Shown piece by piece: positions 7,183 to 25,256 of a stretch of DNA of 38,577 nucleotides (its first letter is position 1; each line of letters starts with the position of its first letter). The stretch lies in the IMG/VR virus record IMGVR_UViG_3300037487_002484, positions 1-38,577 of that record, one strand, 5' to 3'. This stretch comes from a virus. The notes under the pieces are model-generated. The model was not told where the DNA came from and ran no database searches. It worked only from the letters and a program-made list of their open reading frames with translations. A program made the position numbers and the translations under genes.

Positions 7183-8868
7183 ATGAGTATTAAAACAGTA
7201 GAAATTTATCATGGAGATGCTGCACGAAAACCAATGCTAGTAGGTATTAATAAATTTGCAAAAGCTGTAGGTTCAACACTTGGTTCACAAGGTAAAAATG
7301 TAATTATTGAAAAAGGAACTGAAGGACTTCATCAAATAACCAAAGATGGCGTTACCGTTGCTAAAAGCATTTATTTTAAAGATGAATTAGAAAATTTAGG
7401 CGCACAATTAGTAAAAACCGTTACTGAAAAAACTGCTAATTTTATTGGAGACGGCACTACTTCTAGCACTATTTTAGCTGCTGCTATGTGTAATGAAGGT
7501 TATGATTATATTCAACAAGGTATAAATACTGTTGAGCTTAAAAAAGGATTAGATTATGCAAAAAATAATTTTATTACACTCCTTGAAAGTTATGTAAATA
7601 TTATAGCTGATAATAATGATGGAGAAATGGCTTATAAAATTGCTACTATTTCTTCTAATTATGATGAAGATATAGCATCTACTTTACGTGATACCTTTAA
7701 AAAAGTAGGTAAAAACGGCGTTATAGTAGTAGATAAAGAAATTCAAGGTTCGGAAAAAACTAAAACCATGCATTTAGATCTTATTGAAGGATTTAGAGTA
7801 GAAAGCGGTTATATTAACAATAATTTTATTATCGGAAATAGTGCTAACAGATGGGAAGCTAATGACTGTAGAATTTTAGTATTACCTATGGATATTACTA
7901 ATTTTCAATTTATTATTCGTATTGTAGAACACTGTGCAAGTAAAGGAGAGCCTATACTTATAATTGCTAATGATTTTACCGGAGATTCCGTTATAAGCAT
8001 GCTACAAAATAATGCTCACGGTAAGGTAAAAATATGCGGTATTAAAAGTCCTTCTATAGGAGAAGAAAAAGCACAAATATTAGAAGATATATGTATCTAT
8101 ACAGGTGCTAAATACCATAAAACTTCCGATGGTAGATTTAGAGAAGATATTACACCTAATTTTTTAGGCATAGCAAATAAAGTAATAGTAGAACGCACTC
8201 ATACCACTATTCTAGGCGGTAAAGGTGATCCTATAATGATTCAAAATCGTGTAGATAGCATTACTACTGATATCGACTCAGGGACATTAACCGCTTATCA
8301 AAGAACTTATTATCTAGCACGTAAAGCCCAATTACTAGGTCAGGTTGCTATGATTAAAGTATGTGGTCAGACCGATACCGATTTATCTGAAAAGTTAGAC
8401 CGGGTTGACGATGCTGTGCATGCTACTAAATCTGCTATCACTTATGGTTATGTAGCTGGAGGAGGGTCAATATTATTTAAAATTGCTCATTTTATGGAAA
8501 AATTAATATTAGATAATAATACAAATGGATTTAATGCTGGAATATTAGTCTTTATTAAAGCTTTAAAAGCTCCTATGTCTAAAATTATTAGCAATGCTAC
8601 AGGTTTAGAAGATGTTACAGAATATTTAGATAAAATTAATCAATCAAATAATAAGAATATATCAATATTTGGCTTTGAAGCTAATACTTCCAGTATAGTT
8701 GATATGTTAGATACAAATATTATCGATCCATATGAAGTAGTAAAATATGCAGTATTGGATGCTGCTGCTGTTGTAGGAATATGGCTGACTACAGATACTG
8801 CTGTAATTAATGTTCGTAAAGATGCAACTGAAAATTTACGTGAACTATTACTTGGAAATGTAGTTTAA
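7183..8868 (+). CDS. groEL-like: GroEL-type chaperonin (divergent, mobile-element encoded), 561 aa
   Basis: A Group I chaperonin, an ATP-driven protein-folding ring. Strong ribosome site (AAAGGAGA) before the ATG. Conserved ATP-site motifs are present: TKDGVTVAK (53-61), GDGTTSS (89-95), VDDAVHATK (408-416, containing the catalytic Asp equivalent of E. coli D398), AGGG (425-428) and IIDP (513-516). Length is close to the usual 540-550. It differs from ordinary GroEL: the apical domain has GYINNNF where GroEL has GYLSPYF, the C-terminal Gly-Gly-Met tail is absent, and no groES is next to it. Phage-encoded GroEL relatives are known (for example in Pseudomonas phage EL). It is unlikely to be the host's housekeeping copy, which is highly conserved and normally follows groES. 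The substrate could be the capsid or fibre proteins, which is inference. Confidence 0.93.
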   Translation: MSIKTVEIYHGDAARKPMLVGINKFAKAVGSTLGSQGKNVIIEKGTEGLHQITKDGVTVAKSIYFKDELENLGAQLVKTVTEKTANFIGDGTTSSTILAAAMCNEGYDYIQQGINTVELKKGLDYAKNNFITLLESYVNIIADNNDGEMAYKIATISSNYDEDIASTLRDTFKKVGKNGVIVVDKEIQGSEKTKTMHLDLIEGFRVESGYINNNFIIGNSANRWEANDCRILVLPMDITNFQFIIRIVEHCASKGEPILIIANDFTGDSVISMLQNNAHGKVKICGIKSPSIGEEKAQILEDICIYTGAKYHKTSDGRFREDITPNFLGIANKVIVERTHTTILGGKGDPIMIQNRVDSITTDIDSGTLTAYQRTYYLARKAQLLGQVAMIKVCGQTDTDLSEKLDRVDDAVHATKSAITYGYVAGGGSILFKIAHFMEKLILDNNTNGFNAGILVFIKALKAPMSKIISNATGLEDVTEYLDKINQSNNKNISIFGFEANTSSIVDMLDTNIIDPYEVVKYAVLDAAAVVGIWLTTDTAVINVRKDATENLRELLLGNVV

Positions 8869-9832: not shown

Positions 9833-10037
9833 TTAAGAAATCTCTATCTCTTCCTTAATTTTTTTCTCTATGGCTTCTTTTATCCATATATTTCGTGCTT
9901 TTGAGTAAATACTGTTTTTCCGATAACTATCAATGGCATTTAACATTTTGGCAGGTATACGAATCGTAATTTTGATGTCAAGAGCCTTGACATCTATTTT
10001 ATTCAGCTTTACTCTCTCTCAGAGATCTGGTAATCAT
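9833..10037 (-). pseudogene. ribbon-helix-helix (CopG-like) protein, frameshifted near start
   Basis: Read leftward, 9833-10018 is open and translates as a beta strand (LDIKITIRIP), then helix A (AKMLNAIDSYRK), a turn and helix B (SKARNIWIKEAIEKKI). That is the ribbon-helix-helix pattern of CopG-type antitoxins and regulators. There is no conventional start in frame before the beta strand. An ATG at 10037 begins MITRSLRES in another frame, and the two are separated by a short GA repeat. One extra GA unit would join them in frame. No toxin gene is seen beside it. It is either decayed, mis-sequenced or phase-variable. Confidence 0.5.
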
Positions 10038-10086
10038 TTTAAAATATAAATAACTATTTTAAAAACTTTAAAACAGGAAAATTAAA

Positions 10087-10770
10087 ATGACGTTAAAGAA
10101 AATAATATTAGCAACTTTAATTAGCACGGCATCCTTTACTGCGTTTGCAGAAGAAAAACCCCTTGATGACAAACAATACTTCATACAATTAAATGGTGGC
10201 CTTTCAAAATCCTTAAAACCAAGTGGTGGTTTTAAAAATAGTTCTCCTGGAAATGCCGGGATTTTTGGTATTGAGGGTGGATATAAAATCAATGATAACT
10301 TTCGTACAAGTTTAAGTATTGATTATCTTACGGACGTAAAAAACAAATTTAGTTATAATACTGATTTGGGCTATGGAGTCGGAGGTAATAATCATCTAAG
10401 TTTCAAAACTCAGTCATGGGTTGTAATGGCTAATGCTTATTATGATATTATGGAATATCATAATTTTACACCTTATATAACAGCAGGATTAGGTATTGCT
10501 AGAAATAAAACCTCTGGAACTGACAAATTAGTTCCGTATAGTCTTCTAGGAAATGCTGACCCTGAATATAGCTCTCCTCGAGGGACAAAAACAAATTTTG
10601 CATATAAAATTGGATTTGGTTCAAGATTTTTAGTTAGTAAAGAAATAGATCTAGACTTACGTTATCAATTTGCGGATCTTGGAAAAATTTCGGCTAGAGA
10701 TTCTGATGAAACATACAAAGGTAAATTAAAAGCCCACGAATTCTTAGTTGGAATAGCATACAAGTTTTAG
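10087..10770 (+). CDS. outer-membrane beta-barrel surface protein, 227 aa
   Basis: Ribosome site AGGA before the ATG. A Sec signal peptide ends at AFA/EE (cut after about residue 21). The mature protein alternates polar and aromatic residues in strands, with turns, and ends KAHEFLVGIAYKF: alternating hydrophobics and a C-terminal Phe, the classic outer-membrane barrel insertion signal. Glycine-rich strands (AGLGIARN, KIGFGSRF) fit the OmpA-like / opacity-type eight-strand barrel family that includes rickettsial surface antigens and adhesins. It would sit in the outer membrane. It could be a host gene, or a lysogenic conversion gene altering the surface. Same strand as the next gene, 28 bp apart. 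Confidence 0.85.
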   Translation: MTLKKIILATLISTASFTAFAEEKPLDDKQYFIQLNGGLSKSLKPSGGFKNSSPGNAGIFGIEGGYKINDNFRTSLSIDYLTDVKNKFSYNTDLGYGVGGNNHLSFKTQSWVVMANAYYDIMEYHNFTPYITAGLGIARNKTSGTDKLVPYSLLGNADPEYSSPRGTKTNFAYKIGFGSRFLVSKEIDLDLRYQFADLGKISARDSDETYKGKLKAHEFLVGIAYKF

Positions 10771-10798
10771 TAAATTTAAATAAAAAGGATTATAAATT

Positions 10799-11287
10799 AT
10801 GCCTAAAATAAATCATGAAAAAATTCTTACTGTAATTCAGAAGCAAGCAGATGTAATGATTGATAAAATTATAGCTTCTGACTATATAAAAAATCCAAAT
10901 GCAACAAAAGTAATGGAAACACTTAAATCCTACAAAGATGATTACAAAACTGCAAATGCGCAAGATGTAATCTCGGCAAAAGAAGTTTTTGACAATCTTT
11001 TTGGAGAAATAACACCAACTTCTAATCCAACACCAACCAGTAATAGTGCTTCCTTTGGCTCAAGTATGACAGGTGTGAGACTTAAATTCGTCACACCGTT
11101 CGCTAATATCAAAGGAGCAAAAATAACTGCTAAGGAAGTTATAATATATGAATCTGTAAAATTTGCGTGTAGTCAAAGCACTTTAGATGCCCCTGATATT
11201 TACCTTCCGGCCGAAAATGTTTGTGTTATAAGTAGTGATTGTATCCTTAAAGGTAATATTCATTATGGAGAGGATTCCCTATATTGA
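10799..11287 (+). CDS. hypothetical protein, 162 aa, probably cut short
   Basis: Good ribosome site (AAAGGAT) before the ATG, 28 bp after the barrel protein. Residues 1-75 are helical and Lys-rich, a Pro/Thr/Ser/Asn linker follows (TPTSNPTPTSNSASFG), then a beta-like domain (KGAKITAKEVIIYESVKFA) with three cysteines. The protein ends abruptly at GNIHYGEDSLY within the 25 bp shared with the end of the ParA fragment on the other strand, so the C-terminus may be broken by the same rearrangement. The beta part loosely recalls a repeat-type beta-helix. No family recognised. Confidence 0.5.
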   Translation: MPKINHEKILTVIQKQADVMIDKIIASDYIKNPNATKVMETLKSYKDDYKTANAQDVISAKEVFDNLFGEITPTSNPTPTSNSASFGSSMTGVRLKFVTPFANIKGAKITAKEVIIYESVKFACSQSTLDAPDIYLPAENVCVISSDCILKGNIHYGEDSLY

Positions 11288-11475
11288 GGAAGCTTTTCTT
11301 CTTCTTTGCTGTTTCTTAATGTCGAAAAATCATATGATGTTTCTTGATCATCTGCATCGACCAATAGAATATTAGGCTTTTCATAACTCCTCATAATAGC
11401 AATGTTTGTTGCAATTGTAGTTTTGCCCGAACCGCCTTTTATTCCACCAACTACTATTAGGGGTTTGACGATCAT
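11263..11475 (-). pseudogene. parA: ParA/Soj-type partition ATPase, N-terminal fragment
   Basis: ParA-type ATPases drive segregation of plasmids, phages and chromosomes. The P-loop GGIKGGSGKTT (residues 10-20, deviant Walker A with its signature Lys) and the Walker A' region LLVDADDQETS (38-48) are intact. The product stops at 70 residues, whereas the family is about 200-260, so the switch and C-terminal domains are missing. The last residues (YRESSP) no longer look like ParA; the break lies after about residue 65. The ATG and first five codons come from the arm of the inverted-repeat element at 11460-11578. Probably non-functional. It marks a recombination boundary between the accessory genes and the phage cluster. 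Confidence 0.75.
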
Positions 11476-11578
11476 TGGAACGAAAAGTAGCTCTAAGGAC
11501 TTTCTATCGATACCTCACTTTAGACAAATGATAAAAAGTCCTTAGAGCTACTTTTCGTTCCAATGATCGTCAAACCCC
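11460..11578. mobile_element. 119-bp perfect inverted-repeat element, MITE-like
   Basis: Two 44-bp arms (11460-11503 and 11535-11578) are exact inverted copies around a 31-nt spacer, with ends GGGG and CCCC. The bases just outside are TTA on both sides (11457-11459 and 11579-11581), fitting a 3-bp TNA-type target duplication as made by some IS5-family elements. Pairing continues partly beyond the arms (one mismatch out to 11454/11584). It encodes nothing itself but provides the start of the parA fragment and sits 27 bp after the last phage gene, so it may also stop transcription from both sides. The family assignment is inference. Confidence 0.65.
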
Positions 11579-11605
11579 TTATAGGCCTAGAATAGGTCAA
11601 ATATA

Positions 11606-13630
11606 TTAGTTGTCAAAAGCTTTATTATCTTCTTTTCTCTTATTTAATATAGATTCTAATTGTTTTCCAGATAGATTTGCTAATCTATCTTCATTATTAA
11701 TCATATTATCTATAATGCTAGTTGAATATACATTCGAAAGAGCTTGCGGAATTTTAGGTACATATTGGTCTGCAGCCGTTCCTTTCATTAAGCTTTTATG
11801 AATTTTAACTTCGTTAGTTTTGATAGGAGATAGGAAAGATGTGTCTTTTAAATAAGGTATTTTAGATTTTAATATACTCCACCAACGATCAGCTGTACCA
11901 GAAGGATTCGTTCCTGAAATAGGTTTTGAAAACATCATATGAGTATATTTTGCAGCGTCTTCTAATGCTTGCATATCTTCTTTCGTATATACTGTTTTTG
12001 CTAAAGTTGGATTATCTTTTTTGAATTTATCTAAATTTGTACTAAATGAAGCAGGATTATCACCAAATAACTTATGAGTTACTTCAGCTTTGATTAATTG
12101 ATCAGCTTTAGGAAATAAGGACTTAACTTCTTTTACTATAGCAGCTGATTGTTGTGAGAATCCAAGCTTACTTACACCTAATATCTCATTTACAAGCATT
12201 TCATCAGTATAAGGTGTTTCCGAATAACGAGCATTATCAATGATTTTTTTCAAGAAAGTTTTTCCGAATTCACTTTTATGTTCTGGATGATATTTTTTAG
12301 CCCACTGGGCATTTAGACTTCTTGCAGTTTTAAATTTATTTAATACCAGTTCATCACCAGTTTTAAGAGCTTCTTCAACAATATCATCAAGATAATTATC
12401 AAACCTGCTTTTAATATCATTTAATGCATATCTGGTTTGTCCACCTTGTTCACTTTCATAAATAGTTCTATTAAGACCTTGTCTCCATGATTCAATTTGT
12501 TGGAATGGTAATTCATCACTCTTATTAATCATTTTATCAAGTGATCCTAAAATAGTTTTTACTTTTGGAATATCATCTTCATATATTACATTGGATTCCA
12601 GATCTTTACGTATTAAGTTTGGAATATCTTTTACTTTATTAGTTTTTATTGCACCCACCTGATTTGCTGCTTCATCATATGCTTGATTTATAACTTTTCT
12701 TTCATTAAGGGCTGTTGTTGTAATATCATCAACTAATTCTCTGGCAGCAACTCCTTTATTAGGCAAAGAACCTCCGAGTTCTGATTTGATTTCCTCTATT
12801 CTTTCAGGAAATCTTTCTTTTTGCCTTTTATAAAAATCTAACATCCGTCTTTGATCATTATCTCCATAATATCCTTGAGCTGCATTTTCTTCTACAAGTA
12901 ATTGATTTCTATTTCTAGTTAATTGCCCTTCAGTAAATGGAGTTTTATTTTGTTTAGCTATCTCTATAGCTTCCTGAATCTCTTTTGAAGCTGGTTTTTT
13001 ATAATGCATAACTAATTCTTTGTATTTTTCAGGAACTTTTTGAAATAATGGAGCTATAATTGGACTTGCAAGTTTAGTAGCTAAATGAGCACCTGAACCT
13101 AATGCAGCGCCTGTTGTACCACCATATAAGGCACCTAAAGCATCATTAGCGCTCAAAGATAACGGTTTCCCTTCATCATTACTTCCAAGCCCATGAGCTG
13201 CACCATATGCACCACTAAGACCTGCAACTCCTTTCAATGTTTTTACCGGAAATGGTAATCCTAAAGAACCGGCGATCTCTCCCGCTAAATAACTTTTAGG
13301 ATTTTGCTTAGAACTTTCTATATCATGCATTCTGCTTTTATCTCTTCCATGGGCATAAACTTCACTCCATGACATCTCCGGATTTAATAATTTTGCTATA
13401 GGAGATCCTACTGCTCCAACTACTTTAGGCATAAAACCAAATGTCAAAGCATTACTTGCTCCTCGATAAAAAGATTCTAAAGGATTAAATGTCGTATCAG
13501 GATTTAAAGGAGTTGTTACTTCAGGAGTTTCTAAAGCCCCTTGAGGAATAGGTGTTTGCTTACTATTTCTATAAGCCAAAATCTCTCTTAATTCATTCGA
13601 ATTTAATTGATTTAATGGTTTATTTTTCAT
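11606..13630 (-). CDS. internal virion / DNA-ejection-type protein, 674 aa
   Basis: The last gene of the leftward virion operon; its start overlaps the stop of the 936-aa gene (13627-13630). Residues about 45-190 are Gly/Ala-rich and amphipathic (NALTFGFMPKVVGAVGSP; ALYGGTTGAALGSG), the type of segment seen in ejected podovirus proteins such as P22 gp16 and gp20 that cross membranes. Residues 200-500 are helical and charged. No enzyme motif seen. Position after the tail genes and co-occurrence with other long helical proteins support a role in injecting DNA through the cell envelope. No clear sequence match to a named family, so the role is inferred. Confidence 0.6.
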   Translation of the reverse strand: MKNKPLNQLNSNELREILAYRNSKQTPIPQGALETPEVTTPLNPDTTFNPLESFYRGASNALTFGFMPKVVGAVGSPIAKLLNPEMSWSEVYAHGRDKSRMHDIESSKQNPKSYLAGEIAGSLGLPFPVKTLKGVAGLSGAYGAAHGLGSNDEGKPLSLSANDALGALYGGTTGAALGSGAHLATKLASPIIAPLFQKVPEKYKELVMHYKKPASKEIQEAIEIAKQNKTPFTEGQLTRNRNQLLVEENAAQGYYGDNDQRRMLDFYKRQKERFPERIEEIKSELGGSLPNKGVAARELVDDITTTALNERKVINQAYDEAANQVGAIKTNKVKDIPNLIRKDLESNVIYEDDIPKVKTILGSLDKMINKSDELPFQQIESWRQGLNRTIYESEQGGQTRYALNDIKSRFDNYLDDIVEEALKTGDELVLNKFKTARSLNAQWAKKYHPEHKSEFGKTFLKKIIDNARYSETPYTDEMLVNEILGVSKLGFSQQSAAIVKEVKSLFPKADQLIKAEVTHKLFGDNPASFSTNLDKFKKDNPTLAKTVYTKEDMQALEDAAKYTHMMFSKPISGTNPSGTADRWWSILKSKIPYLKDTSFLSPIKTNEVKIHKSLMKGTAADQYVPKIPQALSNVYSTSIIDNMINNEDRLANLSGKQLESILNKRKEDNKAFDN

Positions 13631-22247: not shown

Positions 22248-25200
22248 TTATACTGGATTAACCACAAACCATTGAACAAAGGAAGTATCTGATGCTCCAG
22301 TAGAGACGACCTTAAAGCTACCATTAGCTATAGTATTTACTGATACAATACCATTATTAATTGGTGTTCCATTAGTTAAAGGAGTAAGAAATATTTTTGA
22401 GGTTGTTTTACATGCAGTAGTATTTACTGTCACATTAGTAGTACGATTTAATTGAACTGATCCGACAGTTCCGTTTGCATTGCTATTAGCAGTAACAACT
22501 AAATTAGCTATTGAATTAACAGCCACTGCTGTACCTGTAGCTCCAAGTATCATAGTATTAGAATTTGAAACCTGTGCACCGCTACCAATTGCAATAGCAT
22601 TAGTTAAACTTCCACCAGTAGAATTAGAATTATCACCAATAAATATACATTGATTGTTACCGTCATGAGAAACTCCCGCAACTCTTCCTATAACAATATT
22701 ATATCCACCAGTAGTATTACCAGAAAATGCATTATAACCTATAACAATATTATCCCCACCAGTAGTATTAGAAGAAAGAGTAAGGGCACCAATTGCTATA
22801 TTATTAGTGCCACTAGTATTGGAAGAAAGCGCATAATATCCAACTGCTGTATTCTGCATCCCAGTAGTATTGGAATCTAAACTATGAGTACCAATTGCTG
22901 TGTTCCGTATCCCAGTAGTATTAGAATAAAGACTCTCAATACCAAAAGCTGTGTTATTACTACCAGTAGTATTTAAATAAAGGCTATAAGATCCAACCGC
23001 TGTATTATCTAAACCAGTAGTATTGGAATCTAAACTATGAGTACCAATTGCTGTGTTCCGTGTCCCAGTAGTATTAGAATAAAGACTCTCAATACCAAAA
23101 GCTGTGTTATTACTACCAGTAGTATTTAAATAAAGGCTATAAGATCCAACCGCTGTATTATCTAAACCAGTAGTATTGGAATCTAAACTATGAGTACCAA
23201 TTGCCGTATTTGCTCCACCAGTAGTATTGGAATTTAAACTATTAAAACCAACCGCTGTATTATCTAAACCAGTAGTATTAAAACCAAGTGCGTCAAAACC
23301 AACTGCTGTGTTTTGTATCCCAGTAGTATTTAATTCTAAACTAGAACCACCAACTGCTGTATTATTTCCACCAGTAGTATTTGATTTTAAACTATAAGTA
23401 CCAATTGCTATATTCTGTAGCCCAGTAGTATTAGAATTAAGTGCATAAGATCCAACTGCTGTATTATTTCCACCAGTAGTATTAGAATTAAGTGCATTAA
23501 AACCAAAAGCTGTGTTATTACTACCAGTAGTATTAAAACCAAGTGCGTCAAAACCAACTGCTGTGTTTTGTATCCCAGTAGTATTTAATTCTAAACTAGA
23601 ACCACCAACTGCTGTGTTCCGTGTCCCAGTAGTATTAGAATTAAGTGCATTAAAACCAAAAGCTGTGTTATTACTACCAGTAGTATTAAATTCTAAACTA
23701 GAAACACCAACTGCTGTATTCTGTAGCCCAGTAGTATTTAATTTTAAACTATAAGTACCAATTGCTATATTCTGTAGCCCAGTAGTATTAGAATTAAGTG
23801 CATAATATCCAACTGCTGTATTATCTAAACCAGTAGTATTTGATTGTAGGCTATAAGTACCAATTGCTGTATTATCTTCACCAGTAGTATTTGATTGTAG
23901 GCTATAAGCTCCAATAGCCGTGTTAGCATCGCCAGTAGTATTTAATTTTAAACTATAAGCTCCAATAGCCGTGTTAGCATCACCATTAGATATCACACTT
24001 CCCGTATTAATACCAACTGCTGTATTATTAAGACCAGTAGGAAGTGGTAAAGGAACTGAATTAGCACCAAAAAAGAAATTATTAGATATTATATCATTAT
24101 AAATAGGTATAGTATAAGGGGTAGCATAAGCAGCAGCCACATTAATACCGACTAATCCACTTGATAATCCCCCTAGATTAACTTGATTAGGTAAAGATGG
24201 ACTTGAACTAGATACCCAAAAAGGAGCACCAGGATTGTTTGGAACGTTATATAATTCAGAAGTATCAGTAAAATAAGCATATCTTTCCTGATCTTTTAAA
24301 ATATAAGTATTTGTTCCACCAAAAACAGAAACTGTAATATTAAAACCACCGGTAGTATTATTATAAATATCATATTTATTTACCTGTACAGGAGTAAAAT
24401 AAACATTAATATTATTAGATAAATTTCCAGAAAATATTATAATATTATTACTAGATTGAGCAGTAGTTAAAGTTATATTAAGACTTGCGGATACATCTAA
24501 TCCAAGTAATGAACCAGTACCAAAACTTAATCTTCCAATCCCAATAGCATTGTAATTAGCGCCACCAGTAATAAAAGTAGAATCTCCAGGAGCAAGACTT
24601 AAATTAGAAGCATTATTAATAGTGTAACCAGGAGGAGGTTGTAGAGTTAAAAGTCCACCAACTGTACTATTATTAATAACGCCAACTATAAATCCATCTA
24701 CAGGAGAAGGAAGAATAATATTATTAGTGCCGCCAGTATAACTAAGTATTGATCCACGATCACTAGGCTGAACTGTATAAGCATTTGTTATTACTATTTC
24801 AGGAAGATTAGTATTAATTTTTGAATTAGTTAATGAAGAAAGTCCATAACCTGATAAAGCATTAGCATTTGCACCTGAAGAACCTGTACCAAGTAATAAT
24901 ACTTTCCACATACCAGAAGCATCGCTATTATCACCTACTGTGCATTGATACAACTGACCAGATGAAATAGTAGCAAGAGAATTATCACTATTGTCATAAA
25001 TACTAAATGTAAGTTCCCCATTATTAAATACTTGAAATGTTCTACCTATTCCTACTAAATTAGCAGGTGGAAAAATAAACTTATTATTAATATTGCTAGT
25101 TGTCACATACATTTGTTGAGCAATTATAAACTGTGAATTTGAGTTATTTTCAGGCCATGCAAATGTAGAATCCGCATTTAAGTCAAAATACTGAAACCCA

Positions 25201-25256
25201 TACTGAGCAGAAGATAACGGAAATACTGAATAAGGATTGCTAAAACTAATTGTCAT
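22248..25256 (-). CDS. tail fibre / receptor-binding protein with 17-residue repeats, 1002 aa
   Basis: Residues 1-135 form a beta-rich anchor-like domain, 140-390 two related beta domains (ITNAYTVQPSDRGSIL; ITLTTAQSSNNIIIF). Residues about 410-869 comprise about 27 copies of a 17-residue repeat of the form N-T-A-[VIF]-G-x-x-[SA]-L-x-x-N-T-T-G-x-x, a beta-roll also seen in YadA-like heads and many phage fibres. The last 80 residues (KTTSKIFLTPLTNG, FVQWFVVNPV) look like a trimeric C-terminal tip. It probably trimerises and binds the host surface. The start overlaps the adaptor gene stop (ATGA at 25253-25256). Nearly identical repeat blocks point to recombination that changes its length. Confidence 0.85.
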   Translation of the reverse strand: MTISFSNPYSVFPLSSAQYGFQYFDLNADSTFAWPENNSNSQFIIAQQMYVTTSNINNKFIFPPANLVGIGRTFQVFNNGELTFSIYDNSDNSLATISSGQLYQCTVGDNSDASGMWKVLLLGTGSSGANANALSGYGLSSLTNSKINTNLPEIVITNAYTVQPSDRGSILSYTGGTNNIILPSPVDGFIVGVINNSTVGGLLTLQPPPGYTINNASNLSLAPGDSTFITGGANYNAIGIGRLSFGTGSLLGLDVSASLNITLTTAQSSNNIIIFSGNLSNNINVYFTPVQVNKYDIYNNTTGGFNITVSVFGGTNTYILKDQERYAYFTDTSELYNVPNNPGAPFWVSSSSPSLPNQVNLGGLSSGLVGINVAAAYATPYTIPIYNDIISNNFFFGANSVPLPLPTGLNNTAVGINTGSVISNGDANTAIGAYSLKLNTTGDANTAIGAYSLQSNTTGEDNTAIGTYSLQSNTTGLDNTAVGYYALNSNTTGLQNIAIGTYSLKLNTTGLQNTAVGVSSLEFNTTGSNNTAFGFNALNSNTTGTRNTAVGGSSLELNTTGIQNTAVGFDALGFNTTGSNNTAFGFNALNSNTTGGNNTAVGSYALNSNTTGLQNIAIGTYSLKSNTTGGNNTAVGGSSLELNTTGIQNTAVGFDALGFNTTGLDNTAVGFNSLNSNTTGGANTAIGTHSLDSNTTGLDNTAVGSYSLYLNTTGSNNTAFGIESLYSNTTGTRNTAIGTHSLDSNTTGLDNTAVGSYSLYLNTTGSNNTAFGIESLYSNTTGIRNTAIGTHSLDSNTTGMQNTAVGYYALSSNTSGTNNIAIGALTLSSNTTGGDNIVIGYNAFSGNTTGGYNIVIGRVAGVSHDGNNQCIFIGDNSNSTGGSLTNAIAIGSGAQVSNSNTMILGATGTAVAVNSIANLVVTANSNANGTVGSVQLNRTTNVTVNTTACKTTSKIFLTPLTNGTPINNGIVSVNTIANGSFKVVSTGASDTSFVQWFVVNPV
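22650..24031 (-). repeat. about 27 tandem 51-bp units encoding 17-residue fibre repeats
   Basis: The unit is 51 bp, and its most conserved stretch on the plus strand reads CCAGTAGTATT. A block of three units (153 bp, about 22.87-23.03 kb) is repeated almost exactly in the next 153 bp. A two-unit block encoding GGSSLEL then FDALGF also occurs twice. All copies keep the frame. Confidence 0.9.

Follow-up and report, generated by a model that had tools for sequence, protein, structure and literature searches.

A miniature Tn3-family element and a two-gene cargo in the broken partition locus of a phage

The partition locus in the window and in sister phages

The window analyzed here, all 38,577 nucleotides of IMG/VR virus record IMGVR_UViG_3300037487_002484, a lone viral contig, carries the remains of a ParA-type partition locus in which fragments of parA and of a small partner gene are interrupted by a 119-bp inverted repeat and by a two-gene insert (hereafter the cargo). 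The features of the locus are as follows, TIME denoting a non-autonomous miniature of a Tn3-family transposon:

9834–9978, minus strand: partner-gene remnant, ribbon-helix-helix-like, 3′ portion lacking a start codon (93% identical to L014 10810–10954 at the nucleotide level)
9979–11279, plus strand: cargo, standing where the sisters have the 3′ part of parA and the first half of the partner gene (absent from L014–L017; sister homology halts at 11280 and resumes at 9978)
10087–10770, plus strand: outer-membrane beta-barrel protein of the cargo, 227 aa (Pfam PF13505, E 3.4e-17)
10799–11287, plus strand: orphan ORF of the cargo, 162 aa, its last codons and stop overlapping the parA fragment (no Pfam or PHROG match)
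11280–11459, minus strand: parA 5′ fragment, about 60 codons with the Walker A′ motif (blastn to L014–L017, 89–97% nucleotide identity; Pfam and PHROG)
11460–11578, no strand assigned: TIME, 119 bp (GGGG...CCCC ends, match to the Tn3 inverted repeat (IR), fold)
11460–11503, plus strand: terminal IR, the parent's tnpA-side end (38-bp core 11460–11497; aligned with the G001 and G142 transposon ends and with Tn3)
11499–11531, plus strand: resolvase (tnpR) remnant, TFYRYLTLDK plus stop (translation; the G142 TnpR C-terminus reads ATFYRYLSLDK*)
11535–11578, minus strand: terminal IR, the parent's resolvase-side end (aligned with the L085/L084 and G142 res ends)
11579–11616, minus strand: remaining parA promoter-operator region (putative promoter TTGACA-16-TATTCT and two GACCTAT-type repeats)

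The ParA ORF (11263–11475, minus strand; 70 aa, MIVKPLIVVGGIKGGSGKTT...) matches Pfam CbiA/AAA_31 at residues 7–54 and the PHROG "ParA-like partition protein" at residues 6–59, and its KGGSGKTT is a deviant Walker A motif (KGGxGKT), which upholds the intact Walker A′ region reported in the initial annotation of this DNA. Homology to the sister-phage ParAs spans residues 6–65. The five residues before it are drawn from the inverted repeat, where that annotation had also placed the ATG and initial codons, and the five after it belong to the cargo side, where the frame indeed meets the 3′ end of an opposing gene (ORF 10799–11287). The ATPase domain thus ends at about residue 65 in the window and is complete in the sisters only. 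The apparent ATG falls within a highly stable hairpin stem and is probably an accident of the inverted repeat that is not used. The window parA has lost both its native start region and all sequence beyond residue 65 and is a pseudogene.

Intact relatives of this ParA, for which the initial annotation had suggested a search, are present in four sister phages from IMG/VR (L014/L013, L015, L016/L012 and L017), of which L014 is nearest to the window. Their locus reads, in order, GACCTAT iterons, parA, iterons and a small gene of 82–87 aa; the 87-aa partner protein has no Pfam match and a weak PHROG match, so its ribbon-helix-helix-like fold is read from sequence only. The GACCTAT-like repeats are spaced at 11 bp, one helical turn, both ahead of parA and between it and the small gene, and may serve as an operator or centromere. 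The short Walker-type ParA, the 82–87-aa gene and the iterons of the sisters resemble type Ib-like modules that pair ParA with a small DNA-binding, ribbon-helix-helix partner; the window differs from such modules in that every part is damaged. In the sisters the locus lies at the corresponding position and is flanked on either side by phage genes, so the site is no phage cluster end, near which the break had first been placed.

The window aligns with L014 as far as 11580; homology then halts at the element, continues from 11459 to 11280, reappears at 9978–9834 and begins again from 9339. The inverted repeat is absent from all four sister phages, which keep its flanks. As judged from this alignment, the TIME sits in the parA promoter-operator region, where it replaces 27–28 bp. 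In the sisters these bases lie downstream of the putative promoter and contain the ATG of parA along with the other repeats. The cargo has taken the place of the rest of the partition module: its 1.3 kb stand for about 0.63 kb of sister sequence that takes in the last two-thirds of parA, the first half of the partner gene and the iterons between the genes. There are two junctions, and they record two separate events, the TIME at the 5′ edge of parA and the cargo about 180 bp away at its 3′ edge. The initial annotation was right that a partition gene had been broken, and intact relatives do exist in the sisters; its single junction has to be divided in two. That metagenome assembly produced a false join, whether at the repeat or at the cargo, is very improbable: the arrangement is known from a single record, and contigs of a genome considered below (G001) do break at the repeat, but the collinear sister locus continues beyond both TIME and cargo in the right order and orientation, as a random join would not.

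Relatives of the beta-barrel protein in the order to which G001 belongs reach at most about 43–44% identity, and ORF 10799–11287 has no relative among viral contigs. The pair resembles phage-borne acquisition of host-surface genes. A terminator-like hairpin at 9974–9994 (GATGTCAAGAGCCTTGACATC then TATTTTATTC) falls exactly on the junction between cargo and partner gene. The possibility of a composite structure (TIME-COMP) with a second TIME beyond the cargo was rejected, since the window contains a single copy.

The 119-bp element and its parent transposon

From GGGG to CCCC the element measures exactly 119 bp, the length first reported. A repeat search extends the arms to 11454–11508 and 11530–11584 (55 nt each, with a 21-nt spacer), which are 96% complementary rather than perfect as had been stated. 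The predicted fold of the element (−94.2 kcal/mol) lies far beyond chance when compared with dinucleotide shuffles (mean −25.1, z −19.7). Tn3-family IRs of about 38 bp are present at both ends and are near-identical to the transposon ends of G001 and G142; against the 38-bp IR of Tn3 itself the arm is identical at 30 of 38 positions, the maximum among 100,000 shuffles being 22. Low-stringency blastn matched the element to an annotated Tn3 end in phage P7 and also to unannotated stretches of enterobacterial plasmids, which in light of the P7 matches we read as Tn3 ends as well. The element holds no transposase gene, and the contribution of tnpR is limited to ten codons and the stop.

Scanned with 22 bases of the arm, a genome collection covering 84,980 species yielded one MAG labelled Rickettsia typhi (G001), in which four contigs end inside a longer element that starts with the IR. 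A further match in a euryarchaeote (L083) was set aside as chance, its 22 bp lying inside a long ORF and without the rest of the IR. Pairing the G001 contig ends by their flanks resolves two copies, each bounded by a perfect 5-bp duplication (ATATA and AAACT), and the resolvase-end half of the window element is 99% identical to these ends over 80–81 bp. Related transposon ends occur in 8 of the 344 genomes of the same order, and in one of them (G142) both ends lie on a single contig, where they enclose a 4,048-bp transposon with a 5-bp duplication (TAATA), a resolvase, TnpR (192 aa; PF00239, E 2e-48), and a Tn3 transposase, TnpA (1,000 aa; PF01526, E 1.5e-131). The parent shares with the window element an identical IR design and a tnpR stop next to the IR, and differs in having tnpA, tnpR and 5-bp duplications, whereas the window copy has neither gene. 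These copies identify a Tn3-family lineage with intact 5-bp duplications, carried by small genomes from the order to which the Rickettsia-labelled MAG belongs.

The copies in G001 have ends of the full-length type only, with no miniature form among them, and no connection to these IRs could be established for two of its TnpA genes, C80 and C103. The taxonomy follows the deposited label of this MAG and the database grouping. The family of G001 comprises only 6 genomes in the collection, which renders the species label doubtful; the MAG (CAMCSP01; L082, L084, L085, L086) is probably misnamed. Related elements have transported cargo, as shown by G006 (L107, 2028–7070), where the roughly 5 kb between a pair of related IRs contain passenger genes besides a decayed resolvase and a tnpA fragment.

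Together, these sequence comparisons identify the inverted repeat as an internally deleted, non-autonomous Tn3-family derivative, that is, a TIME. The mobile miniature element proposed at the outset gains from them on two counts, since its arms recur elsewhere and a parent with the same ends, the search for which had been recommended, exists in G142 and by its ends in G001. The very stable fold and the position between a gene end and parA would also suit a regulatory or terminator hairpin of the phage's own, but the repeat is missing from four sisters that keep its flanks, and its ends and core are identical to those of a transposon with tnpA and tnpR elsewhere; this origin is refuted, its probability being close to nil. 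Once inserted, the hairpin may nevertheless affect regulation as a side effect.

A likely origin of the TIME can be traced along the parent. Read inward from its resolvase end, the element follows the parent collinearly over 80–81 bp, past the tnpR stop and ten codons, to GATAGAAAGT, after which comes the opposite IR in complementary form, AAAAAGTCCTTAGAGC. The 5-bp microhomology AAAGT is present on both sides of the joint, so that one internal deletion of about 3.9 kb suffices to explain the miniature and, on this alignment, would have been its origin.

The same anatomy is described for TIMEs in PMC4133298 and PMC13367494. The window element is like TIME1-4 and the early example IS101 in its Tn3-type 38-bp terminal IRs, its lack of a transposase, its shortness and its A+T-rich target. 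It is unlike them in length (119 bp, against 262 bp for TIME1-4 and 209 bp for IS101), in lacking a target duplication, in being known from one copy and in being carried by a phage for which no related cultured isolate was found; moreover, the core of TIME1-4 matches no known element, whereas the core here can be traced to the tail of a resolvase. A search of all IMG/VR contigs with 21 bases of the arm gave no match, and the miniature form is known from one record only. Neither TIME paper mentions Rickettsia or Rickettsiales, and of the three publications found to combine Rickettsia, Tn3 and MITE none reports such an element in its title or abstract.

Target-site flanks and loss of the parA start region

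The 5-bp flanks of the window element are TATTA and TTATA, which do not constitute a 5-bp target duplication. The TTA noted earlier does occur on both sides, but as a 3-bp identity only and not as a target duplication, given that the parents make 5-bp ones. Since a perfect 5-bp duplication flanks each of the three parent copies checked, the copy in the phage does not represent a clean insertion. The TIMEs of PMC4133298 have 5- or 6-bp target duplications; one TIME without direct repeats is recorded there as well, so that a duplication is the mark of a clean insertion and not a requirement.

Two histories can be proposed for the missing 27–28 bp. The bases may have been lost first, by slippage between two ATAATAG repeats, with the TIME inserted afterwards under an unusual 3-bp duplication; the site in sister L017 indeed reads CCT-ATAATAG-...-ATAATAG-TAG, and TAA (parA orientation, the TTA above) adjoins both IRs in the window. 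We regard this as unlikely, because the perfect 5-bp duplications of the parent copies and the 5- or 6-bp duplications of the published TIMEs (PMC4133298) do not fit a 3-bp one, and because a chance 3-bp match is to be expected in A+T-rich DNA.

Intramolecular replicative transposition in the Tn3 family yields a deletion flush with one IR. An adjacent deletion of this kind is the reading we prefer: the TIME would have arrived in the phage by trans-mobilization by the parent TnpA, and a later intramolecular replicative transposition would have removed the bases flush with one IR.

Consequences for the phage and its possible host

Taken as a whole, with its conditional steps included, a Tn3-derived TIME in the parA control region combined with replacement by cargo is very probably the correct explanation of the locus. 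The partition system is predicted to be inactive in this phage. The integrase is common to the window and the sisters L013/L014, L015 and L012/L016 (92–96% identity), and gain of an integrase does not, therefore, explain the loss of partition. The phage backbone was not found in G001, so the phage's contact with a carrier of the transposon is inferred; nor is the phage terminase in G001, and across its order the terminase reaches at most 45% identity, which leaves the host unproved.

A broader scenario, which we put forward as speculative and, taken jointly with its consequences, improbable, is that phages of Rickettsia-related bacteria carry trans-mobilizable Tn3 miniatures between hosts and that adjacent deletion by a TIME switched partition off here. 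If so, a plasmid-capable prophage would have been left reliant solely on integration, and the locus would have become available for host-surface cargo. TIMEs and Tn3 transposons were already known; here a miniature derivative of a Tn3-family lineage has reached a phage, and its history is unusually well resolved, since the dismantling of the partition module can be read in a flanking genome that is still collinear, with the intact sisters as controls.

Two other genes of the window bear mention. A full-length GroEL-like chaperonin of 561 aa (7183–8868, plus strand; PHROG chaperonin groEL, E 4.9e-106) is conserved in the sisters, and a fiber- or adhesin-like protein of 1,002 aa (22248–25256, minus strand) contains many NTTG..NTAVG/NTAIG repeats, the number of which differs from that in the sisters.
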